54,081 nt of DNA, from contig CACDEU010000002.1 in the NCBI GenBank assembly GCA_902551895.1, forward strand, positions 1 through 54,081, given 5' to 3'. The notes beneath the pieces were generated by a model. It saw only the letters and a list, made by a program, of their open reading frames with translations, ran no database searches and had not been told where the DNA came from. The DNA is from an uncultured Pelagibacteraceae bacterium. GTDB lineage: Bacteria > Pseudomonadota > Alphaproteobacteria > Pelagibacterales > Pelagibacteraceae. Each line of letters opens with the position of its first letter. Positions within the stretch are counted from its first letter, which is position 1. Position numbers and translations under genes: made by a program. Below, piece by piece: positions 22,478 to 46,326 of this stretch.

Positions 22478-23176
22478 ATGAATAAGCTATTATTACCACA
22501 GGATATAGTCGGAGGATCTTTTTGGCTTATTTCTGTTGCAATGATAGGTGCAGCAATATTCTTCTTTTTAGAGAGAGGGCGATTATCTAATCGATGGGCC
22601 ACAGTGATGAACCTTGTTGGAGTGATCGCTTTGATGTCATCCATCCATTATTTCTACGCAAAAAATTTATGGGTATTAAATGGACAAGCGCCAATAGCCC
22701 TTAGATACATTGATTGGCTTCTTACTTTTCCATTAACAATTTTAACTTTTTATGTAATGCTAAATTCAGTTACCGACATCAAAAGAGGAATGTTTTGGCG
22801 TTTGTTAGTTGGAACTTTAGTTTGGGTTATTGCTCAACTTCTAGGAGCTTACGGTTACATGAGTGTAACTTTAGGATTTTTGGTTGGTATAGTTGGATGG
22901 TTATACATAATTGGTGAACTTTATATGGGTGACACAGGAAGAAAAAATGCTTCTTGTGGTAACGAAAGTGTTCAAATGGCTTTTTTTGCAAATAGACTAA
23001 TTATAACAATAGGTTTTTCAATTTATCATATTGGATATTTTATTGAGCACCTGGCAGGAGGAGCAAACATAAATAGTTTAAATGTAATTTATAACCTTGC
23101 TGATTTTTTGAACAAAATAATATTCGGAATGATAATTTATAGTGCAGCAATACAAGACACAAAGAAAGGAACTTAG
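22478..23176 (+). CDS. Proteorhodopsin-like microbial rhodopsin with atypical DTT motif
   Basis: 232 residues, seven helices, no obvious signal peptide. Aligned by eye to green proteorhodopsin, the retinal lysine is Lys213 (LADFLNKIIFG), counterion Asp79 with Thr83 (RYIDWLLTFPL), Asp209 and His57 are kept. The proton-donor position (Glu108 in proteorhodopsin) is Thr90 and the tuning position 105 is Thr87; the pocket Trp197 is Phe180 and Pro201 is His184. Loss of the carboxylic donor predicts a slow or non-pumping photocycle, so a sensory or regulatory role is possible. A flotillin gene follows after 21 bases, and no carotenoid or retinal gene is nearby. Family certain, function uncertain. Confidence 0.93.
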   Translation: MNKLLLPQDIVGGSFWLISVAMIGAAIFFFLERGRLSNRWATVMNLVGVIALMSSIHYFYAKNLWVLNGQAPIALRYIDWLLTFPLTILTFYVMLNSVTDIKRGMFWRLLVGTLVWVIAQLLGAYGYMSVTLGFLVGIVGWLYIIGELYMGDTGRKNASCGNESVQMAFFANRLIITIGFSIYHIGYFIEHLAGGANINSLNVIYNLADFLNKIIFGMIIYSAAIQDTKKGT

Positions 23177-23197: not shown

Positions 23198-25186
23198 ATG
23201 ACTAGAGGAGCAGATATAATAGCAGCGATAATTTTATTAGCACTTGCAATAGCGATTATAGTTTATTTATTGCATTGGCTATACAGAAGATCTTCAAAAG
23301 AAGTGTCTTTTGTTAGAACTGGAATGCTTGGAGAGAAAGTTGTTATATCCGGTGGCGCATTTGTTTTACCAATTATTCATAATATTACTCAAGTAGGTAT
23401 GCGAACACTAAGCATAACTATAAAAAGAGGTGGAGATAAATCTTTGATAACAAAAGATAGAATGAGAGCTGAGCTTGTTACAGAATTTTTTACAAAAGTT
23501 CCACCTGATCCGAGAGCTGTTTCAACTGCCGCACAAACTTTAGGTAACAGAACACTTGATCCTGAACATTTAAGAGAAGTAGTTCAAGGACGTTTTGCAG
23601 ATGCATTAGGAGAGGTTGCTGCAAAAATGACTCTAGATGAAATACAAGAGAATAGAGGACAGTTTGTAAAAGAAGTTACAAAAATTGCAGACGGATCAAT
23701 TGGCCACACAGGTTTAGCATTAGAAACGGTTTCAATAATTTCTTTGGACCAAACTCCAATCGAACAATTTAATCCAGCAAATACTTTCGACTCACAAGGT
23801 TTAACACAACTAACTGAACAAATCGAAACTAGAAAAAAGAAAAGAAACGATATTACTCAAGATACAAAAATTTCTATTGAAAATAAAAATTTAGAAACAA
23901 TTCAAAAGGAATTAGAAATTAAAAAAAATGAAGAGTTTTCAAAATTTAAACAAGAAAGAGAAGTTTCTATTCAAAAGGCAAATGAAAAAACTGAATCAAT
24001 AAAGCAAAGAGCAGAAAAAGAAAGAGAAGCTGAGGAAGCAGAAATAAAAAGTCAAGAGGCAATTGAAGTTGCAAAAATTTCTCAAAATCAAGTTATCGAG
24101 GTTGAAAGAAAACTTACTGAAACAAGATTGATTGAGGAAATTGAAAAGAGAAGGAAGGAACAAAATGAATTGGAAAAAAATGCAGCTCTCGATATAAGAC
24201 AAAAAGATCTTGAAACTGAAGTTAAGATTTTAAATTTAGATAAAGAAAGTGAATATGCACGTTTAGAAAAGCAAAGATTAGTTGACATTAAACGAGCTCA
24301 AGAAAAAACATCAATAATAAAAGAGCAATCAGAAAGACAAAAAGAAGCTGAGGAAGCACAAATAATTTCCGAACAAGAAATCAAAAATGCTAAAATTGCT
24401 CAGCAAAGAAATGTAGATTCACATAGAATTGAGTCAGAAAAAGAAGTTAGAACTTTAGATATTGAAAAGGCTAAGAGGTTGCAAATTGAAGAGCACCAGA
24501 AAGAGTTAGAGATAATTGAAAAATCTAAAGAAGTTCTTGCATCAAAAGCTGAGGAACAAAATACACGGGCTAAAGCTGTAGAAGCTGAAGAGAAAGCAAA
24601 TTCAACTAGATACATTGAAAAAGCTGAAGGAATAAAGCAAGTAGATGTAATCGAGGCATCTGCAAAAGCTGAACAAGATAAACATGCAACTATGGCTGCT
24701 AAATTAAGATATGAAATAGATGCTGCAGGTAAAGAAGCTTTAAATCTTGCTGAGAATGTTAGAAGCGATGCAAATAGAAGAAGTGCATTAAGAATAAAAC
24801 TTGCTGAAAAAATTGAATCAATTATTAGAGAAAGCGTTAAACCTATGGCAAACATTGGTGACATTAAAATTGTTGATGTCAGCGGTCTTCCTGGATTTAG
24901 CGGGACAAGTGTTTCACCTTCAGGAGGTGGCGGATCAGGTACTTCTAGTGGGTCTAAAAGTGGAGGAGGAAACTTAGCAGACAATGTAGTTAGTTCAGCT
25001 TTAAGATATAGAGCTCATCAACCGTTTTTAGATAGTCTTCTTAAAGAAATTGGAATGAATCCTGGAGAAATTAGTAACATCAGAAATATCCTTGGTGATT
25101 ATGGAAATCCAAAAAAAGATTATCATATGAACTTTGGTGAAGATGCAAAAAATTTAAAAGGAGCCAATAATCCAAAAAACAAATAA
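23198..25186 (+). CDS. Flotillin/YqiK-type SPFH-domain membrane scaffold protein
   Basis: 662 residues. One transmembrane helix (about 6-28) is followed by a Band7/SPFH domain (about 33-200), a long charged coiled coil (205-490), the flotillin C-terminal region (about 495-560) and a Gly/Ser-rich linker near 565-590 before a helical tail. The coiled coil contains a tandem duplication of about 106 residues (from 225 and from 331; both copies contain AEEA near the end). Flotillins organise membrane microdomains and oligomerise at the inner membrane. A clear AAGGAGG ribosome binding site precedes the ATG, and the rhodopsin gene ends 21 bases upstream, indicating one transcript. A structural link to the rhodopsin is inferred from position only. 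Confidence 0.88.
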   Translation: MTRGADIIAAIILLALAIAIIVYLLHWLYRRSSKEVSFVRTGMLGEKVVISGGAFVLPIIHNITQVGMRTLSITIKRGGDKSLITKDRMRAELVTEFFTKVPPDPRAVSTAAQTLGNRTLDPEHLREVVQGRFADALGEVAAKMTLDEIQENRGQFVKEVTKIADGSIGHTGLALETVSIISLDQTPIEQFNPANTFDSQGLTQLTEQIETRKKKRNDITQDTKISIENKNLETIQKELEIKKNEEFSKFKQEREVSIQKANEKTESIKQRAEKEREAEEAEIKSQEAIEVAKISQNQVIEVERKLTETRLIEEIEKRRKEQNELEKNAALDIRQKDLETEVKILNLDKESEYARLEKQRLVDIKRAQEKTSIIKEQSERQKEAEEAQIISEQEIKNAKIAQQRNVDSHRIESEKEVRTLDIEKAKRLQIEEHQKELEIIEKSKEVLASKAEEQNTRAKAVEAEEKANSTRYIEKAEGIKQVDVIEASAKAEQDKHATMAAKLRYEIDAAGKEALNLAENVRSDANRRSALRIKLAEKIESIIRESVKPMANIGDIKIVDVSGLPGFSGTSVSPSGGGGSGTSSGSKSGGGNLADNVVSSALRYRAHQPFLDSLLKEIGMNPGEISNIRNILGDYGNPKKDYHMNFGEDAKNLKGANNPKNK

Positions 25187-34363: not shown

Positions 34364-34564
34364 TTATAATTTACAAATTAAAGAAAATATATTGATTACT
34401 AGAAAAGTTGTAATTTCATCTTTTAGTTCATCGTAATTTACATATCTTCGGTCTGTAGAAGATAACGCAATATCAACCAAACTTTTTGTTTCTTCTTCAG
34501 ATATACCTATGTCATCTGAAAGATTTTTGATTAATTTTAAGTATTCAACTTTCTTATTTGTCAT
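34364..34564 (-). CDS. Small hypothetical protein of the carboxylase locus
   Basis: 66 residues, overlapping the biotin-carrier gene by 4 bases (ATGA type), which supports that it is real. The first two thirds are helical and acidic (LKLIKNLSDDIGISEEETKSLVDIAL), and the last 15 residues are hydrophobic (FLVINIFSLICKL). It resembles no family I can name. Translational coupling suggests it works with the biotin carrier or the carboxylase. Confidence 0.55.
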   Translation of the reverse strand: MTNKKVEYLKLIKNLSDDIGISEEETKSLVDIALSSTDRRYVNYDELKDEITTFLVINIFSLICKL

Positions 34565-34779
34565 TCAATTATTACCGCAACTGTATCTGGGTCAATGCCT
34601 TCCTGATCATTCACAACATTAACTTTTGTTACTGTTCCATCAACTGGTGAGTCATGATGTACTTCTGTTTTCATTACTTCCATAATAAATAATGTATCTC
34701 CTTTTTTAACTGCATCACCTTCTTTAACTAAAACTTTCCACATATTTCCAGGCACAGTTGTTTTAACTTCTGTTGTCAT
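34561..34779 (-). CDS. Minimal biotinyl/lipoyl carrier protein
   Basis: 72 residues, just one biotinyl domain. The modified lysine is in MEVMKTEV, corresponding to the canonical EAMKM motif with a changed flank, and DGTVTKVNVVNDQEGIDPDTVAVIIE closes the barrel. It would carry carboxyl groups made by the biotin carboxylase at 35932-38385. It sits 17 bases after the PxpC-like gene, as in split urea-carboxylase-like loci. No alanine/proline-rich extension of AccB is present. Lipoylation is less likely. Confidence 0.85.
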   Translation of the reverse strand: MTTEVKTTVPGNMWKVLVKEGDAVKKGDTLFIMEVMKTEVHHDSPVDGTVTKVNVVNDQEGIDPDTVAVIIE

Positions 34780-34796
34780 AAATATCTTTAATCTAT

Positions 34797-35924
34797 CTAA
34801 TCAAAATATCTAATTTTAATTGATTTCATTCCTCTTCTTTCCATTAATTTAGTTCTTATTTTTTCATTCATTCTTTCTTTGTCAAAATCAACAATCTTTA
34901 TATGATCAATTTTAATTTTTTTCTTTTTGTCATTTAAATCAGTACCTTTTTTTGACGATATCACACTAATTTCACTACAAATTTGAGTTTGTTCTGATCG
35001 TAATTCTTGAGCTTTATCAACAGATATTTTAACAAAATTAAAACTATCACCTGGTTTTGCTTGGCCAAGTTTCCAAAAAGATGCAGAAGGAACAGTGTAA
35101 GGAACAATAAATCCACCCATACTAGGACCATCATTGACTAATATAATTGGAGTTTGTCCAGCCAAGTTTATAGCTCCCGCAGGATATCCTTGATCAATAA
35201 TGTTCGAAGGAAAAGTTCCATGCTCTAATCCTTTATTAGTTGCTTTTTCAGCAAAAGACCATTTTGGCCCATCTAACCTATAACCTGTTCTGTCACTTTT
35301 AGACTGAAGTTTCCAGTCAGCATTTAAAAACATTTTATGACCTTTGTCATCTACCCAATCATCATTTGGTCCTTTAACAACTTCTATTGACCATTTTTTA
35401 TTTGTAGACATTACTGGGATAGAATCTTTTTTAATTTTTCTTCCAGGATATGACTTAGATTTATTTAAAGGAATAATTTGACCATCTTGTATTGCTTTAC
35501 CATCTATTCCACCAACCCCTGCTTTGTGAAAAGTAGATCTTGAGCCAAGCCAAGGCGTGGTATTTATCCCACCAGAAAAGGCAATGTAAGCTCTTGCACC
35601 TATTGTTGCATAAGACATTTCTAAAATTTGATCCTTTTTGACTGCTAAACTTTCCCACAATGGAACAATCTTTCCATCTATCTTTGGATTCATGTTAGCC
35701 CCAGTTATTGCAATAATTCTATCACTATCAAATTTAAGTGTTGGACCCATAAACTGACACTCTAATGCAGCTGCTCCAGATTCATTTTCCACTAAAATAT
35801 TTGCAAGCCTAAAAGACCAACTATCCATTGGACCTGAGGAAGGAAAACCTTGATTTAAAGTTCCAATTCTTCCAGGATAATCCTGAACGGACGTTTCTAA
35901 ACCTTTTTTAATTACTTGAACCAT
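34797..35924 (-). CDS. pxpC: PxpC/KipA-type carboxyltransferase domain protein with unusual C-terminal tail
   Basis: 375 residues from ATG 35924, chosen because family members begin with a hydrophobic VIKxGLxTSVQD segment exactly there, whereas the upstream in-frame start would overlap the preceding gene. The core has GRIGTLNQGFPSSGPMDSWS, ECQFMGPTLKF and GYPAGAINLAGQTPIIL, typical of 5-oxoprolinase subunit C and the AHS2 part of urea carboxylase. The last ~50 residues extend past the usual end and contain HIKIVDFDKE and finally SIKIRYFD. A closely related tail occurs in the ATPase at 43362-45107 and the 170-residue protein at 42850-43362. With PxpB and PxpA it would form an ATP-dependent 5-oxoprolinase or lactamase; coupling to biotin carboxylase leaves the substrate open. 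Confidence 0.87.
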   Translation of the reverse strand: MVQVIKKGLETSVQDYPGRIGTLNQGFPSSGPMDSWSFRLANILVENESGAAALECQFMGPTLKFDSDRIIAITGANMNPKIDGKIVPLWESLAVKKDQILEMSYATIGARAYIAFSGGINTTPWLGSRSTFHKAGVGGIDGKAIQDGQIIPLNKSKSYPGRKIKKDSIPVMSTNKKWSIEVVKGPNDDWVDDKGHKMFLNADWKLQSKSDRTGYRLDGPKWSFAEKATNKGLEHGTFPSNIIDQGYPAGAINLAGQTPIILVNDGPSMGGFIVPYTVPSASFWKLGQAKPGDSFNFVKISVDKAQELRSEQTQICSEISVISSKKGTDLNDKKKKIKIDHIKIVDFDKERMNEKIRTKLMERRGMKSIKIRYFD

Positions 35925-35931
35925 ATTCTTT

Positions 35932-38385
35932 TTAAAACCTCTTTGAATGGTCAATCGTTTTTAACCAACTTTTATAATTTTTTACTGAAAATTTTTGATA
36001 TTCAACAATGTTATAATTATATGTTCCGTCTTTTATTTTGTTTGATACATGGTCAAACTCTTCATAAGTAGTAGGTACAAATTTTACTCTGTCACCAGGT
36101 TGAAAAAGACATATATTATTTTCAAATACTGGAAAACTTTTTTTGGTGTCCCATATAGGAACAGGGATAATTCCAAAAATTTGATAACCACCTGGTAGAC
36201 GATCTGGATAAATACAAGTTGAAGCACCACCCATTCCAACAGTTCCTTTTGGAGTCCAAGTTCTTGGAGGGTTATATTTTGGAACAGTCAGCTTACATCT
36301 TGGATCAAGGGCCATCATAAACGGAAGACCTGGCCAAAAACCTATTGCTGCCACCCAATATTCTGTACTTGAATGAACTCTTACAAATTGATCAATATTT
36401 TCAAGATTATTTAATTCTGTTATAAGTTCAGGATCAGGTTTCTTTTTAGCTATTTTATTTGAATAATCTTCAATACATTCCTTTGTCCATTTATCTAAAT
36501 AAACAGTTGGAAAAGAAAAGATTCTACTATTTATTTCTATTTCATCTGAAGGTCCTAGTGAGTTGATTAAGGATATAAGTTCATTTTTTAATTCATTAAA
36601 TTTTATTTCTTCAGGTTCATAATGAACTATCATAGAAGCAAAACAGGGAGATGTTTCGTAAACGCCTTTAACTTTGTGGTCTTTTATTGCCTTTGCTAGA
36701 TTTTGAGCGGTAAAATTTAGCTCTAAATTCATTACGTTTCCAAACTCAATAAGCATATATTTATCACCAGCAGGTAAGAACTTAGGAGTATCGTAAATTT
36801 TGCCTGGAACGTTATTTACTTCAGTTTTCTCATCTGTTTTCTTCTTATTATTTTTTGATGAAACTATATTTTCAAATTCTTTTAAATCTTTATCTGTATA
36901 ATCTTGACCATTTTTAATTTTTGGAGTTTTTGAAATAATTTTTTCAAATGCTTTTACATCTTTGTCGCTATATTTTTGTTCATTATTTTTATTTTGCTGC
37001 TTGTCTTTTAGTTTAATTTCTTTTTTTTCTTTAAATAAAGTTAAATTATTTTCAATAAATTTTGTATTAAAGTCTGCATCCTCAAAAGTTTTATTTTGAA
37101 GAACAGATATCAAAAAAGATTTATTTGTTTTAATACCTTCAATTTCTAAATCTTTTAAAAAATTTATCATGTTGTTAATACTTTCAGTTCTATTTGCACC
37201 TTTAGAAATTATCTTTGCTATCATTGGGTCATAATAAAAAGATATTTCATCTCCCTCATCAACACCAATATCTAATCTAATATTTGTTAAGCCTACATTT
37301 GGAATTTTTAGTTTTGTAATTTTTCCTGGAGATGGGAGAAAGTTTTTTGAAGGATCTTCTGCATACAATCTACATTCAACTGCATGACCGTTTCTATTAA
37401 TTTTATTTTGTTCTGTTAAATCAAAATCAATACCTAATGCAAACTTAATTTGCATCTCTACTAGATCTGAATTAGTTATACTTTCTGTTACAGGATGTTC
37501 TACTTGAATTCTTGTATTCATTTCTAAAAAGTAGAATTTTTTTTCGTCCACATCGTAGATGAATTCTATCGTTCCAGCACCTTCATAATTTTGATTACTT
37601 GCAAAGTTTACTGCACTTTGTGCCATTTCATTTAAGATTTTTTCATCTATCTTTGGTGCAGGACTTTCTTCTATAATTTTTTGAAATCTTCTTTGAATTG
37701 AACAGTCTCTTTCAAAAAAATGTACAGCTTTCTTTTCACCAAAACCAAATATTTGTATTTCTATGTGCCTTGCATTTTTTATAAACTTTTCTAAAAAAAC
37801 ATCACTGTTACCAAAAGCTTTCTTAGCTAAATTTTTTGTTTTTTCTACAGATTTAATTAATTCTCCATAGTCATTAACAATTTGCATTCCTATTCCACCT
37901 CCACCTGCGCTAGCTTTTACTAGAATAGGAAAACCAATTTCATTACATTTTTTTTCTAAATCTTCTTTTTCTAAATCCTTATTATTTAAGCCTGGACAAA
38001 TAGGTAAATTACTTTTTACAGCTAAATCTCTTGCTACATCTTTGTTACCCATTGATACAATTGTATTTGGTTTGGGTCCTATCCAAGTAATTCCAGAATC
38101 AATTACTTTTTGGGCAAATTTTTCGTTTTCTGCTAAAAAGCCATAACCGGGGTGAATAGCGTCAGCTTTTAATTTTTTAGCTGCTTCAATTATTTTATCT
38201 GCATTTAAATAACTTTCTTGAGCTTTCGATGCACCGATGTGAATTGACTCATCGGCTTTTCTTACATGTTTACTGTTTTTATCTATATCAGAATAAACTG
38301 CTATTGAGTGAAACTTAAGTTTTTTACAACTATCGATAATTCTACAGGCAATTTCCCCACGGTTTGCAATCAGAATTTTTTTCAT
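35932..38385 (-). CDS. Biotin carboxylase fused to PxpB/KipI (AHS1) domain through a repeat-bearing linker
   Basis: 817 residues. 1-445 is a full biotin carboxylase: KILIANRGEIACRII, the ATP-grasp glycine-rich loop KASAGGGGIGM and FLEMNTRIQVEHPVTE. About 530-817 is a PxpB/KipI domain (YMLIEFGN..., PGLPFMMALDPRCKL, PRTWTPKGTVGMGG). They are joined by a lysine-rich linker (450-528) with two copies of a 14-residue repeat, YSDKDVKAFEKIIS at 472 and YTDKDLKEFENIVS at 496, also found four times in the protein at 42850-43362. Biotin carboxylase plus AHS1 resembles urea carboxylase with its parts rearranged. It works with PxpC, the small biotin carrier and PxpA. The repeat may be an interaction tag. 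Confidence 0.88.
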   Translation of the reverse strand: MKKILIANRGEIACRIIDSCKKLKFHSIAVYSDIDKNSKHVRKADESIHIGASKAQESYLNADKIIEAAKKLKADAIHPGYGFLAENEKFAQKVIDSGITWIGPKPNTIVSMGNKDVARDLAVKSNLPICPGLNNKDLEKEDLEKKCNEIGFPILVKASAGGGGIGMQIVNDYGELIKSVEKTKNLAKKAFGNSDVFLEKFIKNARHIEIQIFGFGEKKAVHFFERDCSIQRRFQKIIEESPAPKIDEKILNEMAQSAVNFASNQNYEGAGTIEFIYDVDEKKFYFLEMNTRIQVEHPVTESITNSDLVEMQIKFALGIDFDLTEQNKINRNGHAVECRLYAEDPSKNFLPSPGKITKLKIPNVGLTNIRLDIGVDEGDEISFYYDPMIAKIISKGANRTESINNMINFLKDLEIEGIKTNKSFLISVLQNKTFEDADFNTKFIENNLTLFKEKKEIKLKDKQQNKNNEQKYSDKDVKAFEKIISKTPKIKNGQDYTDKDLKEFENIVSSKNNKKKTDEKTEVNNVPGKIYDTPKFLPAGDKYMLIEFGNVMNLELNFTAQNLAKAIKDHKVKGVYETSPCFASMIVHYEPEEIKFNELKNELISLINSLGPSDEIEINSRIFSFPTVYLDKWTKECIEDYSNKIAKKKPDPELITELNNLENIDQFVRVHSSTEYWVAAIGFWPGLPFMMALDPRCKLTVPKYNPPRTWTPKGTVGMGGASTCIYPDRLPGGYQIFGIIPVPIWDTKKSFPVFENNICLFQPGDRVKFVPTTYEEFDHVSNKIKDGTYNYNIVEYQKFSVKNYKSWLKTIDHSKRF

Positions 38386-38390
38386 ACTTT

Positions 38391-39110
38391 TTATTTTTTA
38401 AGTGCTTTTTTTAAACTTTTGATGATTTCAACAGCATTAGGTGTATCTGAATGAACGCAAATAATATCACATCCAACATCTGTATCTGTACCACTTGTAT
38501 TTTTAACTTTTTTTTCTTTTATAGCTCTTAAACAACGTTTTACTGCTAAGTTACTGCTATATTTTGCATTTTTCCCTTTAGCTATTACAAGTTTTCCATC
38601 TTTGTCATAATCTAAATCAGCATAAAATTCCGCGATAAAGTCTAACTTTCTTTCTTTTTTGTAAATTTTTTCATGAACTGTATTTGCCATACCATAAATA
38701 CTGACATTAAAAGTTTCGACCGCATCTGCAATAGCTCTTGCAATCTCTTCATCTTTTGAAGCCATAACATATAAAGATCCATGAGGCTTTATATGGTTTA
38801 AAGGCATATTATACTCATCTAAAAAAGCTTTAAGAGCACCGACTTGATACATTATCATATTTTTTAAATCTAATTTTGGCATCTTCATTTCTCTTCTTCC
38901 AAAGCCTTGTAGATCAGGAAAAGAAGGATGAGCTCCTACTTTTACTTTATTTTTTTTTGCTAGCTCTACTGTTTTCCTCATATGATTAGGATCTGATGCA
39001 TGAAAACCGCATGCAACATTAGCGACATCTATCAAAGGCATTATTTGCTCATCATTTCCTGCATTATAAATTCCAAAACTTTCTCCCATATCACAATTTA
39101 TTTTTGTCAT
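38391..39110 (-). CDS. pxpA: LamB/YcsF-family 5-oxoprolinase subunit A
   Basis: 239 residues, normal for PxpA. The family signature is complete: INCDMGESFGIYNAGNDEQ at the start, ANVACGFHASDPNHM, KVGAHPSFPDLQGFGRREM and LNHIKPHGSLY. In 5-oxoprolinase PxpA with PxpB and PxpC hydrolyses 5-oxoproline to glutamate using ATP. It lies 5 bases before the biotin carboxylase-PxpB fusion and 8 bases after the second permease, so the enzyme and transporter are transcribed together. It may act on another lactam or cyclic ureide. Confidence 0.9.
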   Translation of the reverse strand: MTKINCDMGESFGIYNAGNDEQIMPLIDVANVACGFHASDPNHMRKTVELAKKNKVKVGAHPSFPDLQGFGRREMKMPKLDLKNMIMYQVGALKAFLDEYNMPLNHIKPHGSLYVMASKDEEIARAIADAVETFNVSIYGMANTVHEKIYKKERKLDFIAEFYADLDYDKDGKLVIAKGKNAKYSSNLAVKRCLRAIKEKKVKNTSGTDTDVGCDIICVHSDTPNAVEIIKSLKKALKK

Positions 39111-39118
39111 TTTTTCTC

Positions 39119-40523
39119 CTATATTTGCGACCTTATATGTGGCGACCTAGCATAAAGAGCTACCATTGGTATAATCAATAATCCTAGAATAAATTGTTGA
39201 GCTTCCCAACTCAACCCCCATCCAATCAATACAGTTGTTACTATTTGTAAAATTAAAACACCAATTACACTTAATCCATATCCTCCATAACCACCCAATA
39301 ATGATGTACCTCCAATTACTACTGCGGCTATTGTTGTAAATAAATATATATCTCCCGCTCCAACAAATCCTCCACCACTCCAACCTAGAAGAAGTGCTCC
39401 AGTTAAAGCTGCAAAAAATCCACTTATAACATAAGCTCCAATCCAATAACCTCTTTCAGAAATTGATAGTCTTGAAGAAGACAATCTACTACCTCCTAAA
39501 GCATACAAATGTCTTCCCCATTTTGTTAATCGTAGACCAACAATGATTATTATGCTTGCAACTATCCAAATAATTACAACAGGAGGTATTGGAAGACCGA
39601 TAGTTTTACCATTCATGGATGCTAAATTAGTCATCCACGGAGGAACTACACCAAAAACTGTACCAGCTGAAAAAGTCCCCATTGCCACAAGTATTTGAAC
39701 TCCACCTTTAACAAAAAAAACCAACACCCAATGTTAAAATTAAAGCTTGTCCTTGCAATCTAAAACTTAAAATTCCATTTACCAATCCTATTAAAGCACC
39801 AATTAACAAAATAGCTATGCAGGCCAACCATGGTGGAACTCCCTTAGAAATTAATGACATTAGTGCTACGTTCATAGAGCCAATAACAAAAGGGATAGAT
39901 AAATCTAAACCACCTAACATCGCAACAAAAGTTTGTCCTACAGTTGCCAAACCAAGAAATGCAGCAAAAACTAACATCGATTTCATATTCATTAATGTTA
40001 AAAAACCAGGGATTGTTAATGATCCAATTATAAACAATCCAATTAAAACAGATATTCCAACAAAAACACTTTTGGTTCCCTTAATAAACCTGCTTATGAC
40101 CCCCATAAAAATTACAAAGGCAAGGAAAATTAAAAAAGATACTAAAGTTCTTCCAGAAAAGAAATTTTCTGCAATAAAAGACACAAATATAAATATTAAA
40201 ATTACACCAAGGAAAGCAATAGTTTTCCATTTATGCTCTCTAATATTCTTAAAAAAGAAGTTTTCCTCGTCCTCACTGTCTTGCCCTTTTTCTTCTTCTT
40301 TGGGCATTTTAGTAAATATATTTTGTTTTAATTCTTCGTTAATCCATCTTACTGAAAAATGGTACCATCCCCAAAGTATTAACCCCGTTACTGCTAAAGA
40401 GTACGCAACAATATTCATCCAATCGGCTCCATCAAACCAACCAAGAACAGCAGTACCAATACCGCACAAGACTGCAAATAATAAACCTAGTCCTTTAAAG
40501 AAAAGAAAAGCAGATCTTTTCAT
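39119..40523 (-). pseudogene. Second sugar-type ABC permease, interrupted by a homopolymer frameshift
   Basis: Two reading frames together encode one RbsC-like permease: 40523-39708 (271 residues) and 39727-39119 (202 residues). They overlap at a run of eight A on the plus strand (39713-39720). With seven, the sequence reads continuously through ...LTLGVGFFVKGGVQILVA..., as expected for the family. The transmembrane core has GGLDLSIPFVIGSMN in the first part and ALGGSRLSSSRLSIS and IAAVVIGGTSLLGGYG in the second. About 150 residues before the core are additional, with an acidic loop (KEEEKGQDSEDEEN). It may be a real inactivation, a sequencing error in a homopolymer, or polymerase slippage. 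It starts 1 base after the first permease stop. Confidence 0.85.
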
Positions 40524-40524
40524 A

Positions 40525-42846
40525 TTATTTTACCTCTTCCCATTGGCTTAATTTATTGTCTCTAGCTATTTTCTCTCTGTATATTGTCATGAATTGCCAT
40601 ACTAAAGGAGTAAGTGGTATCCCAATTATAAATACGGCTATAATTTTGTAAAACGAGTAGCCTACAGAATAAAATATTCCTGACCATAATAGACTTGCGA
40701 AGATAACAATGTACATATATGGAGCAAATCTTTTGTAACTAGCTTTTTGTCCCATGTTTAAAAATAAAAAATATTGTACTAAAAAAACTGCCAAAATACT
40801 AAACGCTACTTGTGAATAGCCTGAATTTACTGTCTCATAGAAAAATCTTTTTGTAGCTTCGTATTTAATTTGAGATAAATCACCAATATTTAACTCACTT
40901 ATAATTCTTGGTTGATAAATTGTTGTATCACTTGGGATAAAAGTATTTCCTCCTATAAAATATGTAGAAATTATTGCTAGTACACCAAAACCAAATATAT
41001 AAACATTAGTTAGATTTTTTATTCTTGAATGAGCAAATGGAGCTGTAATAACAAACAAGAGTAGAACTACTAATATTACACCATATCCTTGAATACCAAA
41101 AAAGCTACTATCTGAACTTTCTACTAAATTGTTATAAGATACCCCTTTCAATACAATTAAAGATAATGCTGCTAGGAAAAAAAGCATTGCAGTAGATTTT
41201 GTCTTGGCATTAAATTGGGGCAGCATTGTAATGACCAAAAGTGAAGCAAGCAATACCACTCCAGCTAAATAAACTATACTGTATGTAGTTCCAGAAATAA
41301 GAACACCATCCGAAATATTAGTTAAATAATTTATTTTTTCTAAACTAAAATATTGAGGTGCAGAAGTTTCAATACTACTTGACTGATTAGATTGTAAAGT
41401 TATTAATTCTGTTTCTTTTAATAAGTCTTTTTCTTTATCTTCTGGATCAAAAATTAAACCTGCAACTATTATAACAACAACAACTGCAAAAGTGATTGTT
41501 GAAGGACTCCTATGAACAGCTAATAAATAAAGTAACAAAGCAACACCAGCTATTCCTAGAATTACATAAAAAACAATTGTCCCTGGTGTTTCTGTAAATT
41601 GAACTACACCATGTCCCGCAAGAGATCCACCTTTTGCTGTACCTGTGCCGGTCGTTGTTCCTTCTTCTCCTTCTTCAACAATTATATTTCCTGTTGCATC
41701 AACTTTTCTTATTTTTTTTCCTCTTCTGTCTTCATCCTTTTGTTCCTCAACTACTTTTTCAACAACTATTGGTTGGTCATAAACCTGATGAATTACAACG
41801 AATAATCCAGCAAATGCCATAAGAATAAAAAAGACCATTACAGACAAGCCCCTTGTTACCCTTGTAACGTAAGGAAGAATTAAACTAACTAACAAAGCAA
41901 TAACTAAAACTGCTCCATAAGATAAATCAGATACAAAGCTTTGAAGTCTTTCAAATTTAAAAGTAACCAAGATATAATTTATAAGATATAAATTTAAGGC
42001 ACCTAAAATTGCACCAAAGGCACCTCCACGACCTCCAGCTAGACTTGCTCCTCCTAAAACTAGAGCCGTTATACCTAACAATGTATATTTGGTTCCTTGC
42101 AAAGGATCTCCAGAACCAACAAGAGCAGTAAAACATATTGCAGATAAAGCTGCAAAAATTCCCGCTATCATATGAGCAACTATTCTTACTAGATTAATTT
42201 TAACTCCACTTGTAAAAGCAGCTCTCTCATCTGCACCCATTAATTTTAGATGACCCCAGAATGCAGTATGAGTAATTATGTAAAACAATATTGTTGCTAA
42301 AATCATTAGAAGGAATATTTCATTAAAAATTGTAAAACCTTCTCCCCAAGGAATAAGCCAATCAGGCGCTATTCCTCCTGGTCTTGGCAAAATTACAATA
42401 TTTATTCCAGCAAAAGCTAAATATCCTGCTAGCGAAACAATAATTGGAGATACTCTTACAAAACAAACAATCAAAGCATAAAACAGTTGCCAAATTAAAC
42501 CCATTGCAATCGCATAAACAAACCATCCAATAGGTGTCTGTAAAAAACCTGCGGCATACAATTGAATACTACTTACATTTATAAAACCCATAAACGGACC
42601 AATGGATAAATCAACCCCACCTCTTCCTGCCATTGCTATAAATGTTAATGCATAAGTTGTTAAAATTAATGGAGCTGTAAGCATTATTGCACTTCCTATT
42701 CCAGATTGAGAAATAATTATTGGACTTCTAATTAATGCAAAAATTAATAAAGAAAAAAAGATGAATATTGGAACCATTAGATACTTGTTTGAAGAAGTAT
42801 CAACGCTTGATCTGTAAGTTTTTTTTATTTTATCTACTATTTCCAT
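40525..42846 (-). CDS. Oversized sugar-type ABC permease with additional C-terminal membrane domain
   Basis: 773 residues against about 330 for a standard RbsC. Residues 25-350 are the permease core: AGRGGVDLSIGPFMGF, ILPRPGGIAPDW, and LGGASLAGGRGGAFGAILGAL. A charged and Gly/Thr-rich linker (about 354-420, including VVEKVVEEQKDEDRRG and EEGEEGTTTG) follows, and then about 350 residues containing several more hydrophobic helices unlike the core. The same ABC ATPase and binding protein lie upstream. The additional domain could interact with the neighbouring enzymes, but no known domain was recognised. It starts 3 bases after the 170-residue repeat protein. Confidence 0.88.
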   Translation of the reverse strand: MEIVDKIKKTYRSSVDTSSNKYLMVPIFIFFSLLIFALIRSPIIISQSGIGSAIMLTAPLILTTYALTFIAMAGRGGVDLSIGPFMGFINVSSIQLYAAGFLQTPIGWFVYAIAMGLIWQLFYALIVCFVRVSPIIVSLAGYLAFAGINIVILPRPGGIAPDWLIPWGEGFTIFNEIFLLMILATILFYIITHTAFWGHLKLMGADERAAFTSGVKINLVRIVAHMIAGIFAALSAICFTALVGSGDPLQGTKYTLLGITALVLGGASLAGGRGGAFGAILGALNLYLINYILVTFKFERLQSFVSDLSYGAVLVIALLVSLILPYVTRVTRGLSVMVFFILMAFAGLFVVIHQVYDQPIVVEKVVEEQKDEDRRGKKIRKVDATGNIIVEEGEEGTTTGTGTAKGGSLAGHGVVQFTETPGTIVFYVILGIAGVALLLYLLAVHRSPSTITFAVVVVIIVAGLIFDPEDKEKDLLKETELITLQSNQSSSIETSAPQYFSLEKINYLTNISDGVLISGTTYSIVYLAGVVLLASLLVITMLPQFNAKTKSTAMLFFLAALSLIVLKGVSYNNLVESSDSSFFGIQGYGVILVVLLLFVITAPFAHSRIKNLTNVYIFGFGVLAIISTYFIGGNTFIPSDTTIYQPRIISELNIGDLSQIKYEATKRFFYETVNSGYSQVAFSILAVFLVQYFLFLNMGQKASYKRFAPYMYIVIFASLLWSGIFYSVGYSFYKIIAVFIIGIPLTPLVWQFMTIYREKIARDNKLSQWEEVK

Positions 42847-42849
42847 ATA

Positions 42850-43362
42850 CTAATCAAAATAAACAATTTTTATTTTTTCAATTCCAATTTTATTTTTAAG
42901 TTTTTTTCCAACATCTTTTAATTTGCTGTAATCAATAACTTTAATTTTTTTGTTTTGTTCTTTTATTTTTTCGTCATTATTTTTTGTTTGGATTATCTTA
43001 TTAAATTCACCATAGTCACTTGATTTATAAGTTACTTTAGAACTTATATTTTCTTTATCTTCATGTACTTTATTATCATTGTACTCAGGGAAACTATTTA
43101 GTTGATCAAATTTTTTAAAGTCAGAAGAATTATAATATTTTACTTCTTCATTAACATCTTTTTGGTTTAGCATAGATATATTTTCATTAGTTTTTAGAAT
43201 ATTATTAAAATTATTTTTATCAGAGTTAGAGTAGCTAGTACTATAATTTTTGATTTGAAAATTTTTTACATTATCAGACTTAAATTTTTTAAAATTATTT
43301 AATTTTTCAAAATTAATTTTATCTTCATCATTATAATAATTATTTTTATTTTCTTTTTTCAT
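42850..43362 (-). CDS. Repeat protein of unknown function with shared C-terminal peptide module
   Basis: 170 residues, very rich in Asn, Lys and Asp, with no membrane helix and probably little fold. A 14-residue repeat Y-x-[DNS]-x-D-x3-F-x2-[IL] occurs at 10 (YNDEDKINFEKLNN), 44 (YSNSDKNNFNNILK), 77 (YNSSDFKKFDQLNS) and 112 (YKSSDYGEFNKIIQ), about every 34 residues. Two more copies are in the linker of the biotin carboxylase-PxpB fusion. The end, KKIKVIDYSK ... IEKIKIVYFD, resembles the tails of the PxpC protein and of the ATPase upstream. It overlaps the ATPase stop by 1 base and precedes the permease by 3. A scaffold or adaptor joining transporter and enzymes is the simplest guess. Nothing like it is known to me. 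Confidence 0.75.
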   Translation of the reverse strand: MKKENKNNYYNDEDKINFEKLNNFKKFKSDNVKNFQIKNYSTSYSNSDKNNFNNILKTNENISMLNQKDVNEEVKYYNSSDFKKFDQLNSFPEYNDNKVHEDKENISSKVTYKSSDYGEFNKIIQTKNNDEKIKEQNKKIKVIDYSKLKDVGKKLKNKIGIEKIKIVYFD

Positions 43363-45107
43363 TAAAATGTTTTTATTTTTATTTTTGTTTTATTTTCATT
43401 ATTATTTTCCTTATCGAAATCTACCACTTTTAATATTTTCTTTTCTGGAACTTTATTATCAATTTTTCTATTAGGTGATGGCATCAAAGGCGTATTTGAT
43501 TTACTTGAAATAGTTGTTTCACCAATACCAGCTGTTTGACCAAACATTCCCTCCAACAAAGTGTCTGCATTAACTTTTTCATTTTCAAATATATCGAATA
43601 CTGTTCCATTTCTAAAAACCATTACTTTTGGACAAAGTCCGATAAATTCTTCTAATTCACTGGATAAAAAAACAACTGTATTACCTTCTTCAACATAATT
43701 TCTTAAATGGGTATATAAATCTCTTTTTGTGCTTACATCTATACCTCTTGCAGGATCATTTAAAATTAAAACCTTAGGATGTTGAGCAAACGATCTTGCT
43801 ATCATAACTTTTTGTTGGTTACCTCCACTAAGAGAACCTATTAAATTATCTCTAGGGCCCGTTTTAATACTCAGTCTATCTACTTCCCATTCAAAAATTC
43901 CATTTAACTCTAGCCAATCCACAAATCCTAAAAAACCTCCTCTGCTAGTTTTTTTATAAAGAGGAACTACTAAATTTTCATAAATACTTAAGTTAGGAAG
44001 TATTCCTTCTTTTTTTCTATCTCCGGAAACAAAAGATATCCCATTATTTTTCGCATTATCTAAAGAATTATATTTTACAAAATTTTCATTATTGTCCAAA
44101 ATTTCGGTAAAGCCTCCATGAGCTTCCTGAACACCTGCTAAAATTTTAACAAAGTCATCTTGTCCATTCCCGTCTAACCCTGTTACACCTACTATTTCTC
44201 CTTTTTTTACTTCAAAATTTACAGGCTTGCTGTCAGGCCAAACGACTAAATTTTCAGCTCTCATTACAACTTTATCAGTTTTAGTTTGTATAGATGCAGA
44301 TTTACTTTTTTCTGCTGTTTCTGCTCTTCCTGTCATTAGACCTATTAAATTTTTTTCATTAAGATCTTTTTTTTCTAATACACCGACATCTTTACCGTCC
44401 CTCATAACTGTTGCTTTATCACTTATTCTAACTAGCTCCGCAATTCTGTGAGTAACAATAAATACAGCAATACCTTTATCTCTTAATTCTCTCATTTTTT
44501 TAAACAATCTTTCAGTTGAATCAAAATCTAAAGCTGCAGAAGATTCATCCAGAATTAAAACCTTAGTATTTTCACGCAAGAATGCTCTTGCAATTGTAAT
44601 CCATGCTTTTATTGGTAATGATAGATTAAAAGCCTGAGTATAAGGATCAATATATTCGCCAACAAGATCTTCCATAATTTCTTGTGCTTTTAATACCTTT
44701 TCTCTTTGAGTTAAATTTTTGTACCAAAAATCATCTGAGCCAACAAAAAGGTTGTCAACAACCGATGCTTCTTCTGCAATCATAACTTCCTGAAACACTG
44801 TTGCTATACCCATATTTCTTGCCATAACTGGTGATGTTGGGGTGTGACCTAATACAGAAACTTTGCCTTTATCAATTGGCAAAACTCCTGACATTACTTT
44901 TGCAAGTGTACTTTTTCCACATCCGTTACCTCCAACTATTGCATGGATCTCACCAAAGTTTGCATTAAAATTTACTCCATTTAATGCTTTAGTTACTCCA
45001 AAATATTTATGAACATCTTGGACGTAAATGTCACCTGTAATTTTATCTGATTTATTAGACAACACCTCTTTAGAGGTGTTGTCTTTCATATTTTTTTCTG
45101 CACTCAT
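43362..45107 (-). CDS. Sugar-type ABC transporter ATPase with two nucleotide-binding domains and an unusual tail
   Basis: 581 residues from ATG 45107; an upstream frame opening overlaps the binding protein and is not credible, and a start at 45088 or later is possible. Domain 1: GGNGCGKSTLAKVMSG, signature reduced to FNLSLPIKAWI, VLILDESSAALD. Domain 2: TGLDGNGQDDFVKILAG (Walker A changed: GQDD in place of GKST), LSGGNQQKVMIARSF, VLILNDPARGID. The degenerate second Walker A and first signature suggest one functional ATP site, as in RbsA/Mgl types. The last ~26 residues, KKILKVVDFDKE ... KIKIKTF, are extra and match tails in the PxpC-like and 170-residue proteins. Confidence 0.88.
   Translation of the reverse strand: MSAEKNMKDNTSKEVLSNKSDKITGDIYVQDVHKYFGVTKALNGVNFNANFGEIHAIVGGNGCGKSTLAKVMSGVLPIDKGKVSVLGHTPTSPVMARNMGIATVFQEVMIAEEASVVDNLFVGSDDFWYKNLTQREKVLKAQEIMEDLVGEYIDPYTQAFNLSLPIKAWITIARAFLRENTKVLILDESSAALDFDSTERLFKKMRELRDKGIAVFIVTHRIAELVRISDKATVMRDGKDVGVLEKKDLNEKNLIGLMTGRAETAEKSKSASIQTKTDKVVMRAENLVVWPDSKPVNFEVKKGEIVGVTGLDGNGQDDFVKILAGVQEAHGGFTEILDNNENFVKYNSLDNAKNNGISFVSGDRKKEGILPNLSIYENLVVPLYKKTSRGGFLGFVDWLELNGIFEWEVDRLSIKTGPRDNLIGSLSGGNQQKVMIARSFAQHPKVLILNDPARGIDVSTKRDLYTHLRNYVEEGNTVVFLSSELEEFIGLCPKVMVFRNGTVFDIFENEKVNADTLLEGMFGQTAGIGETTISSKSNTPLMPSPNRKIDNKVPEKKILKVVDFDKENNNENKTKIKIKTF
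45057..45084 (-). other. Strong stem-loop at the 5' end of the ATPase gene
   Basis: A perfect 12-base-pair inverted repeat with a TTTA loop (AGACAACACCTC / GAGGTGTTGTCT) lies about 40 bases after the binding-protein stop. It is not followed by a T-run on the minus strand, so it is not a classic terminator. It lies inside the predicted N-terminus of the ATPase and may protect the binding-protein mRNA or reduce downstream expression. Confidence 0.6.
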
Positions 45108-45123
45108 ACTTTTACTTTTAGTA

Positions 45124-46326
45124 TTAGTGAGATTTAGGATCGTATTTCTCCGGATCAGATGGATTATCAAAGAACGCTTCCACGTAAGATCTTGGAGCCC
45201 ATTTTTCCATTCCTGGGTTATCCCAACCAGTAGAATTTCTATCACAATCTTCATTTAAGATTTGTTTAATTTCATCAAAATTCTTAGTAGCAGGACCAAC
45301 CAATATAGATTGGATTCTAGGACCTTGACCTTGAAGTGTTCTAATCATTACTTCCATACCTAACTCGATTTCATCTCCTGGAGGCCAAGCATATATCGCT
45401 TCATCGATATAGTCTGGGTTATTTCTCCAATAACAAAGAGCTCCCAATTCTCCACCTAATGCAATTGGTGGAATTGGATCAAGTCCTGACTGAAGCAGAG
45501 CTTGTAAAGTTCCTGTTTCTCCTGAAGACTGAACCGCAATACCATCAACTTTTTTTGTATTCGTTGATAGCCATTGTGAAAGTTCCTTCTGAGCAATTTG
45601 AGAAGTCCAGTTATGTGCTAATTGTCCAACAACATTAACATTTGGATATTCATCAAGTGCAGCTAATACACCTTTGTTCTGTTGGTCAGATGCTGAATAG
45701 CCAGGAATTCCTTCCATAACTATCACATTACCTTTTTCACCAATTAACTCAGCCATCCATGCACCAACGTAATAACCAACTAATCTGTAGTTAACAGATG
45801 TATTGATTGAGTACGGAGATGTTGTAAAGCCAGTAAAAGATAGAGTTGGGATACCTTTTTCCCAACCATATTTAATAGTAGTGTTTAAAGCTGTAATGTT
45901 AGAACAACAAATAATAATAGCATCAACTTTTCCGCCATCTATCATCTGTCTCATTTGTTGAATCTGTAAAGAGTCATCCAAATTTGACTGTGTAATAACA
46001 ATTTCATCAACCATTCCTAAAGCTTTCCACTTAGGATAAACAACTTCCATTAAACGCTCCATTGCTCCTTTTCTCCAAGTGTTTCCAGCGTAAGTACTAG
46101 CATAGCCTATTGTCCAAGGTGGTTTTCTAGGACTTTTCCACTTTCTCATTACCGCTTCACCTAGTGGCTGATCACTGTCCATAAAGTCCATGTTGTAAAC
46201 ATAATCTCTCATGTCTTGAGGAACTTTACTTAAACACTCTTTACATAGTTCACCTGCCGAAGCAGAAGAAAAAATTCCAAAAAACCAAGAGAAAAGAACA
46301 ACATATAACATTTTCTTTATTTTCAT
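45124..46326 (-). CDS. Sugar-type (Peripla_BP_4) ABC transporter substrate-binding protein
   Basis: 400 residues. A signal peptide (MKIKKMLYVVLFSWFFGIFSSASA) is followed by a Cys-rich start (GELCKECLSK). The periplasmic fold shows GYASTYAGNTWRKGAMERL, ITQSNLDDSLQIQQMRQM and GGKVDAIIICCSN, similar to RbsB-like type 1 binding proteins but longer by about 80 residues. The rest shows many aromatic residues (YAWPPGD). It presents a substrate to the two oversized permeases. Because the locus continues into PxpABC and biotin carboxylase, the ligand could be a lactam, ureide or amino-acid derivative rather than a sugar. A stem-loop follows the stop codon. Confidence 0.9.
   Translation of the reverse strand: MKIKKMLYVVLFSWFFGIFSSASAGELCKECLSKVPQDMRDYVYNMDFMDSDQPLGEAVMRKWKSPRKPPWTIGYASTYAGNTWRKGAMERLMEVVYPKWKALGMVDEIVITQSNLDDSLQIQQMRQMIDGGKVDAIIICCSNITALNTTIKYGWEKGIPTLSFTGFTTSPYSINTSVNYRLVGYYVGAWMAELIGEKGNVIVMEGIPGYSASDQQNKGVLAALDEYPNVNVVGQLAHNWTSQIAQKELSQWLSTNTKKVDGIAVQSSGETGTLQALLQSGLDPIPPIALGGELGALCYWRNNPDYIDEAIYAWPPGDEIELGMEVMIRTLQGQGPRIQSILVGPATKNFDEIKQILNEDCDRNSTGWDNPGMEKWAPRSYVEAFFDNPSDPEKYDPKSH

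Follow-up and report, generated by a model that had tools for sequence, protein, structure and literature searches.

Short peptide motifs shared by transporter, enzyme and predicted disordered proteins of a SAR11 FArhodopsin–flotillin locus

We analyzed 54,081 nucleotides of DNA from an uncultured Pelagibacteraceae bacterium (NCBI GenBank assembly GCA_902551895.1, contig CACDEU010000002.1, positions 1–54,081), a stretch with 31% GC that is referred to here as the window. Three nonhomologous proteins encoded on its minus strand end in related C-terminal tails: an RbsA/XylG-like ABC transporter ATPase (43362–45254, the open frame as listed), a 170-amino-acid protein designated p170 (42850–43362), which is predicted to be disordered, and PxpC, a CT_A_B carboxyltransferase of 385 amino acids identified by Pfam (34797–35954). 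p170 also carries a second class of motif, which recurs in the linker of a biotin carboxylase–PxpB fusion (BC-PxpB; 35932–38385, minus strand; Pfam). Judged by its genes, the locus is the published FArhodopsin–flotillin (FAR) cluster (PMC10308929). The tails may serve as docking peptides that collect proteins of the FAR cluster into one membrane-bound assembly, for which the flotillin cage is the likeliest receptor; we rate this reading at slightly below an even chance. Binding by the tails, the role of flotillin as their receptor, and the joining of uptake to an enzyme are what we infer from the sequences.

Two peptide motifs in four proteins of the locus

The motif that defines the tails, designated motif B, is strand-like, reads approximately IK[IV]V[DE]F[DE], and occurs twice in each of them. 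PxpC ends in DHIKIVDFDKERMNEKIRTKLMERRGMKSIKIRYFD at the stop codon (IKIVDFD...IKIRYFD), with the two copies encoded at 34881–34901 and 34800–34820. The corresponding end of p170 is KKIKVIDYSKLKDVGKKLKNKIGIEKIKIVYFD (IKVIDYS at 42925–42945 and IKIVYFD at 42853–42873), and that of the ATPase is EKKILKVVDFDKENNNENKTKIKIKTF (LKVVDFD at 43413–43433 and KIKIKTF at 43365–43385). All six copies lie on the minus strand, and the second of each pair immediately precedes the stop. These sequences match the preliminary description of this DNA, which had reported three related C-terminal modules on nonhomologous proteins and had regarded them as additions beyond the usual family ends. The latter view was borne out: none of the tails is part of a family domain, and in PxpC the CT_A_B domain stops at residue 308 of 385. 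More distant PxpC homologs of the genus are shorter, since of the 20 whose frames are intact, 19 are 316–335 amino acids long and one has 256. ATPase orthologs from loci that lack flotillin stop 18–26 residues after a conserved MFG. The listed ATPase frame of the window begins within the upstream binding-protein gene, and the start used by orthologs corresponds to the methionine of MSAEK... near 45110. In an AlphaFold2 (AF2) model of the ATPase, the predicted local distance difference test score (pLDDT) of the tail is mostly below 50; each copy of motif B is modeled as a short strand of low confidence. Docking of the tail onto its own ATPase was rejected on the basis of these scores.

Motif A is helical and conforms to Y-x3-D-x3-F-x2-[IL]. 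Four copies are found in p170 (YNDEDKINFEKL, 43300–43335; YSNSDKNNFNNI, 43198–43233; YNSSDFKKFDQL, 43099–43134; YKSSDYGEFNKI, 42994–43029) and two in the linker of BC-PxpB (YSDKDVKAFEKI, 36937–36972; YTDKDLKEFENI, 36865–36900), all on the minus strand. Neither the count in p170 nor that in the linker was reached in any of 20,000 shuffles of each, and the motif is absent from the 31 other proteins of the window (9,696 residues). Across 39 p170 sequences its key positions hardly vary; the four key residues are invariant in 34 BC-PxpB sequences, and two copies are present on BC-PxpB in 33 of 33 loci. Because BC-PxpB and p170 both carry motif A, the two motifs tie four proteins of the locus together. 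The AF2 model of p170 has a mean pLDDT of 58 and a predicted template modeling score of 0.18 and contains no predicted fold, on which ground a folded p170 was rejected. Helices in the model at residues 12–32, 46–55, 79–88, and 114–123 correspond to the sites of motif A, and a further short helix spans residues 150–153.

Conservation in SAR11 and in distant lineages

Only a minority of the genus has the locus. Of 61 near relatives, 4 have p170, as do 11 of the 397 genomes sampled from the order, all of which belong to this genus; the window genome is part of both counts. A search with the permease as query retrieved 47 loci from named records, of which 46 are titled SAR11, Pelagibacter or alphaproteobacterial and one is a metagenome-assembled genome (MAG) titled Flavobacteriales. 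That MAG (L116, PAKE01000017.1) and a genome of another family (G576, L170) carry SAR11-like copies of the locus on contigs that are probably misbinned.

End motifs were counted at complete ends in these 47 loci and in locus L009, the cut ends of p170 in L009 and of PxpC in L107 being set aside. The terminal copy of motif B is kept in 40 of 40 ATPases, 39 of 39 p170 sequences, and 31 of 32 PxpC sequences; the sole PxpC that lacks it (L128) ends early. The first copy is present in all 39 p170 and all 32 PxpC sequences. In the ATPase it matches the pattern in 36 of 40 cases and was recognized by eye in the remaining four (TLKVVDF twice, IVKVVNF, and NIKVVNF).

Ratios of nonsynonymous to synonymous polymorphism (pN/pS), calculated from pooled pairwise counts that ignore relatedness, separate the motifs from their surroundings. 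For the ATPase, pN/pS is 0.097 in the core, 0.19 in motif B, and 0.77 in the rest of the tail. The values for PxpC are 0.18 in the core, 0.165 in motif B, 0.70 in the linker, and 0.43 in the spacer. In p170, the key residues of motif A have a ratio of 0.015 and motif B one of 0.195, as compared with 0.67 outside the motifs; in BC-PxpB the ratio is 0.16 for the core, 0.18 for motif A as a whole, 0.0 at its key residues, and 0.735 for the rest of the linker. By these sequence comparisons, the motifs are under purifying selection and the spacers are drifting. The expectation that the tails would be conserved in the same three proteins across homologous SAR11 loci while their spacers drift was thus upheld.

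Motif B extends well beyond SAR11. A binding-protein search of 385 genomes of the class yielded six others, and an ATPase-profile search of 398 genomes of the phylum yielded three. Genomes of the genus g78 have 63–66% GC in the stretches read, and their ATPase ends in IKIVET[DE]...VK[AV]V[FY]FD[DE]. Between the ATPase and permease 1, the position occupied by p170 in SAR11, these genomes encode a protein of 110–117 amino acids with five repeats that include IKIVEFD, MKIIEFD, IKIRDFG, and IKIMEFD. This five-repeat protein is preceded by purine-rich sites and occurs in all six ATPase-bearing genomes among 11 of that order; pN/pS is 0.084 in its repeats vs 0.58 in its spacers. In the g43 genomes (G756 and G679), the rhodopsin triad reads D-N-I by eye, as published for HIMB59 (PMC10308929), and the biotin carboxylase stands alone as a protein that ends in IKIVETD...IKVVYFD. 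The PxpC of G756 has no tail, its ATPase ends in VKVVDFT...KIKVKYF, and its PxpB is extended at the N terminus by a segment that contains one copy of motif A and one variant; the ATPase of G679 is truncated by the contig end. Genome G976 contributes an ATPase end that reads SIRIVEFGAHG..., and plasmid-borne ATPases carry IKIVEFD (Hoeflea sp. IMCC20628), IRIIEFD (Martelella sp. AD-3 and M. lutilitoris), or IRVVEFD (Pararhizobium gei) in loci of 57–62% GC. The presence of motif B on orthologous ATPases of high-GC alphaproteobacteria indicates that the tails are not a by-product of AT-rich sequence. Recognition of a free C terminus, as by PDZ domains, was rejected as the sole mode of binding because motif B also occupies internal sites of p170, of the five-repeat protein, and of the Hoeflea, Martelella, and Pararhizobium tails.

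Scans of genomes and of the window speak for specificity of the motif. Profile A1, built from ten tails and applied to six genomes with a cutoff of E ≤ 10, returned 13 rows. Eleven correspond to tails of this locus, one is an 18-position match (E 0.0018) within a frame that we take to be GyrA, and one has an E value of 1.3. Generic low-complexity sequence, which the preliminary description had named as a finding that would speak against it, is therefore not what the tails are in this genome. A matrix made from the g78 repeats only and applied to the last 40 residues placed PxpC, p170, and the ATPase at ranks 1–3 of 33 window proteins, and their observed scores were matched by 3, 4, and 27 of 20,000 shuffled tails, respectively. 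A scan of the DNA of 385 alphaproteobacterial genomes for [IVM]K[IVM]x[DE][FY][DE] found matches in 89. Among the matches listed, several were clustered in one small stretch in three genomes, all of them g78. The window genome contains two matches, one in PxpC and the other at an internal site of an unrelated 272-amino-acid frame.

The ATPase tail tends to occur where flotillin and rhodopsin do. The window, G165, G263, G074, g43, three g78 genomes, and G976 each have both genes along with a tailed transporter; in G024 only the end of flotillin falls inside the stretch read. For plasmids, ten of 60 binding-protein records were opened, and one of these (L215) was excluded for want of an adjacent ATPase ortholog. 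Tail, rhodopsin, and flotillin occur together on the plasmids of Hoeflea sp. IMCC20628, Martelella sp. AD-3, M. lutilitoris, and Pararhizobium gei. A tailless ATPase, with no flotillin in the stretches read, was found in G667, G1036, Rhizobium tropici CIAT 899, Agrobacterium salinitolerans, Rhizobium sp. C104, and Sinorhizobium fredii NXT3; the ATPase of G842 is also tailless but stands outside the flotillin comparison. Counted by lineages of our own grouping, seven have both the tail and flotillin–rhodopsin, one has flotillin only, none has the tail only, and three or four have neither, the lower number resulting when G1036 and S. fredii, whose ATPase ends are alike, are merged. The Fisher p value is 0.010 with four "neither" lineages, 0.024 with G1036 and S. 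fredii merged, and 0.048 when the three plasmid genera are merged as well. The preliminary description had held that homologous loci without tails would contradict it. Such loci were found only outside the SAR11 group, in distant flotillin-less homologs of the transporter, where we read the absence of the ATPase tail as a clue to its partner rather than a refutation.

Flotillin as a candidate receptor and alternative readings

The window flotillin (23198–25186, plus strand; Band_7 and Flot by Pfam) contains the segment IKIVDVS (24863–24883, plus strand), which resembles motif B and lies between a cap-helix-like part and the C-terminal helical part. In human flotillin, the strand that follows the cap helix builds the 44-strand parallel β-barrel of the narrow end (PMC11260169). 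The FAR flotillin resembles the human flotillin-1/2 cage in its Band_7 and Flot domains and in having a strand-like segment after a cap-helix-like region; the available text of that report describes no client peptide. At the corresponding place, FAR flotillins read GDIKIVDVSG, DSIKVVDVNG, GDIKILQVDG, or EGIKILHVEG. The segment was scored with a motif B matrix that excluded flotillin and took its ATPase rows from three g78 sequences, without SAR11 ATPase tails. Of the 21,474 window positions scanned, IKIVDVS ranked second once those of the module were set aside, behind IKLRKFD of an unrelated frame. In this scoring, which was post hoc, the segment was the top position within flotillin in nine of ten homologs from four lineages. 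A sequence search of the window flotillin against solved structures returned nothing at E 0.001, and a profile search had human FLOT1 as its only match.

Since the ATPase tail tends to be present or absent together with flotillin and is similar to the barrel strand, flotillin is the likeliest hub. These observations suggest a model in which motif B would act as a short peptide that forms a strand and hangs on a disordered tether. Its carriers are the ATPase of the transporter in most flotillin–rhodopsin lineages examined, PxpC in SAR11, and the biotin carboxylase in HIMB59-type genomes. The gene next after that of the ATPase would supply a multivalent adaptor (p170 in SAR11, the five-repeat protein in g78) to multiply the contacts, and motif A, as a short helical peptide, would link p170 to BC-PxpB. 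The tails may add strands to the flotillin barrel or cap it. The preliminary description had proposed a common docking partner or assembly tag; this is still the best reading, although that account missed motif A, BC-PxpB, the tail that another lineage has on its biotin carboxylase, and flotillin–rhodopsin.

Several observations weigh against docking of the tails on flotillin. The likeness of flotillin to motif B was spotted by eye before it was scored, with 1–5 of 7 positions identical. In g78 the segment scores just 4.35, as compared with 4.07 for the next position, and in the flotillin of L197 it ranks second rather than best. Profile alignment places it on ANKITLVS of FLOT1 through a weak 2.8-bit domain plus Pfam Flot. 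Since similar segments also occur in flotillins away from this transporter, it may be a generic flotillin strand. Moreover, a barrel that is complete lacks a free edge. No convincing motif B protein emerged when all frames of at least 60 amino acids were scored in six plasmid-borne flotillin loci that lack this transporter; one frame exceeded 13 bits and partly overlaps an annotated gene, and chosen annotated genes scored singly in five of the six had no tail. The flotillins of Variovorax paradoxus (L217) and Yoonia sp. (L218) stand beside branched-chain-type ABC transporters, with a permease-annotated protein of 720–750 amino acids and SRPBCC proteins as neighbors, and motif B was not found there.

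The association of the tail with flotillin has exceptions of its own to set beside these, and the lineages that make it up are few and not independent. Shinella sp. PSBB067 has rhodopsin and flotillin together with an ATPase that lacks a clear motif B. Its ATPase frame (L210, 13174–15471) extends without a stop into about 200 additional, domain-like residues, which are perhaps PEBP-like. One of the four g78 genomes drawn, G487, has neither a motif B pattern nor an ATPase match. In an earlier set of 13 loci, one p170 (G364) lacks the terminal copy of motif B. Permease 1 of that locus (L075, 4398–5482) lies next to p170 on the opposite strand, at the contig end; as the next gene is thus on the other strand by the end of the contig, this p170 end is probably a chimeric assembly junction. 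Finally, no pxp genes were found near the tailed g78 transporters in the stretches read, which span 42 kb in one of the genomes. The link to the enzyme therefore appears lineage-specific. The physical coupling of uptake to metabolism that the preliminary description suggested remains a hypothesis.

The strongest alternative, which we nevertheless consider unlikely, is that motif B is a homotypic sticker: the tails would pair with one another as small cross-β structures or hairpins, the adaptor would be a multivalent linker of the type found in condensates, and flotillin would be a mere neighbor. Two copies in each SAR11 tail, five in the g78 adaptor, and the drifting spacers would suit such pairing, as would the resemblance of p170 to a disordered multivalent protein and the short low-confidence strands modeled at both motif copies of the ATPase. 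However, the ATPases of Hoeflea, Martelella, and Pararhizobium carry just one copy each, and none of the other frames at these loci has more than one, so that few pairing partners remain apart from neighboring transporters; moreover, the tail tends to track flotillin–rhodopsin.

Less likely still, the ATPase tail may dock on the subunits of its own transporter, in autoregulation or clustering, with p170 and the enzyme tails reaching the transporter through the same site. The transporter proteins are indeed the other constant partners in tailed lineages, and the adaptor gene directly follows that of the ATPase, but the tail is missing from orthologous transporters whose loci, as far as read, contain no flotillin, and the AF2 tail, in a model that did not include the permeases, is mostly unstructured. 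That the Lys/Ile-rich tails are membrane-surface or turnover signals without a protein partner seems improbable. Amphipathic, charged tails on proteins that, to judge from their sequences, work at or near the membrane would fit, but the acidic and aromatic pattern is kept across extremes of GC content, the motifs are internal as well as terminal, and p170 holds a second motif in common with the enzyme linker. An origin in low complexity, AT composition, coincidence or neutral drift, which the Lys/Asn-rich spacers and the low GC of the window might suggest, has a negligible chance and was ruled out by purifying selection, the distant high-GC occurrences, and the specificity of the genome scans.

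The locus, related systems and implications

The FAR cluster is about 26 kb in length and was described in SAR11 and also in HIMB59 and Pseudothioglobus; its rhodopsins have the triad DTT in Pelagibacterales and DNI in HIMB59 (PMC10308929). In the window, the FArhodopsin gene (22478–23176, plus strand; Pfam match to Bac_rhodopsin) is followed directly by the flotillin gene, and the rhodopsin sequence RYIDWLLTFPLTILT reads D-T-T by eye. The published contents, namely an N,N-dimethylformamidase-like protein, a sodium symporter, an alcohol dehydrogenase, a biotin-dependent carboxylase, and PxpA (PMC10308929), match those of the window, in which the carboxylase, PxpA, and dimethylformamidase were assigned by Pfam, the iron-type alcohol dehydrogenase by homology to annotated plasmid genes, and the symporter by eye. 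One of our loci, L118, is that of AG-390-L03, the genome annotated in figure 2 of PMC10308929. The main text of that paper, as distinct from its supplements, does not contain the terms "C-termin", "tail", "disordered", or "hypothetical protein". The tails, p170, motif A, and the versions of the cluster in g78 and on Rhizobiales plasmids are new beyond it.

The remaining genes of the transporter and enzyme are on the minus strand. They encode the periplasmic binding protein (45124–46326), permease 1 (40525–42846; BPD_transp_2 with an unusual membrane extension), permease 2 (39119–40523), PxpA of the LamB/YcsF family (38391–39110), and a biotin carrier protein (34561–34779). Permease 2 consists of two overlapping open frames in this assembly. 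In eight of nine orthologs it forms a single frame of 466–469 amino acids, the exception being L077, where it is likewise divided; this points to a likely frameshift or an error of assembly. In g78 (L090:8530–10920, L091:7024–9471, L092:12000–14450), about five GIQSLGSG-like repeats occupy a loop of permease 1 that is IRKVDATGNIIVEE-like in SAR11. Between the biotin carrier gene and a GST-like gene, positions 34364–34564 encode a 66-amino-acid protein that is conserved in eight SAR11 loci (45–98% identity) and has no match in a Pfam scan.

Microcompartment encapsulation peptides and the repeats of carboxysome CsoS2 are short peptides on enzymes or repeat scaffolds that direct co-assembly. p170 shares with linkers of the EPYC1/CsoS2 type its predicted disorder, several conserved motif copies, and drifting spacers, and potential clients bear the same motifs (motif A on BC-PxpB, motif B on PxpC and the ATPase). 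Unlike those microcompartment systems, the FAR locus places the peptide on a transporter subunit, and no shell protein families were found among 18 window proteins scanned with Pfam. In the pyrenoid, one Rubisco-binding motif is present on the multivalent EPYC1 and on nonhomologous clients, and a link between matrix and membrane has been proposed (PMC10473226). The Chlamydomonas pyrenoid is thus alike in sharing a short motif between a multivalent linker and unrelated clients; it differs in its sequences, kingdom, and receptor, and binding was measured there, whereas the FAR locus is known from sequence. Given this precedent for motif sharing between linker and clients, the preliminary statement that no equivalent had been described was too strong. 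Within the open-licence literature, nothing was found that joins SAR11, 5-oxoprolinase, and an ABC transporter.

To our knowledge, how the clients of bacterial flotillin microdomains are chosen is an open question. A bolder reading of the data, more doubtful than docking itself, is a sequence code for flotillin clients, in which mimics of the barrel strand would recruit importer, enzyme, and adaptor to a rhodopsin-associated flotillin cage and thereby join microdomains, possibly light-linked, with uptake and metabolism. The function of FArhodopsin was left open in PMC10308929. A peptide that tends to track flotillin–rhodopsin from SAR11 to plasmids of Rhizobiales provides a handle on these matters in that it predicts clients and names residues to change. 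The SAR11 genomes considered here are single cells and MAGs only, and Hoeflea and Martelella offer genera in which the predictions can be tested. If the reading is true, membrane microdomains, uptake, and metabolism would be physically joined in abundant marine bacteria.

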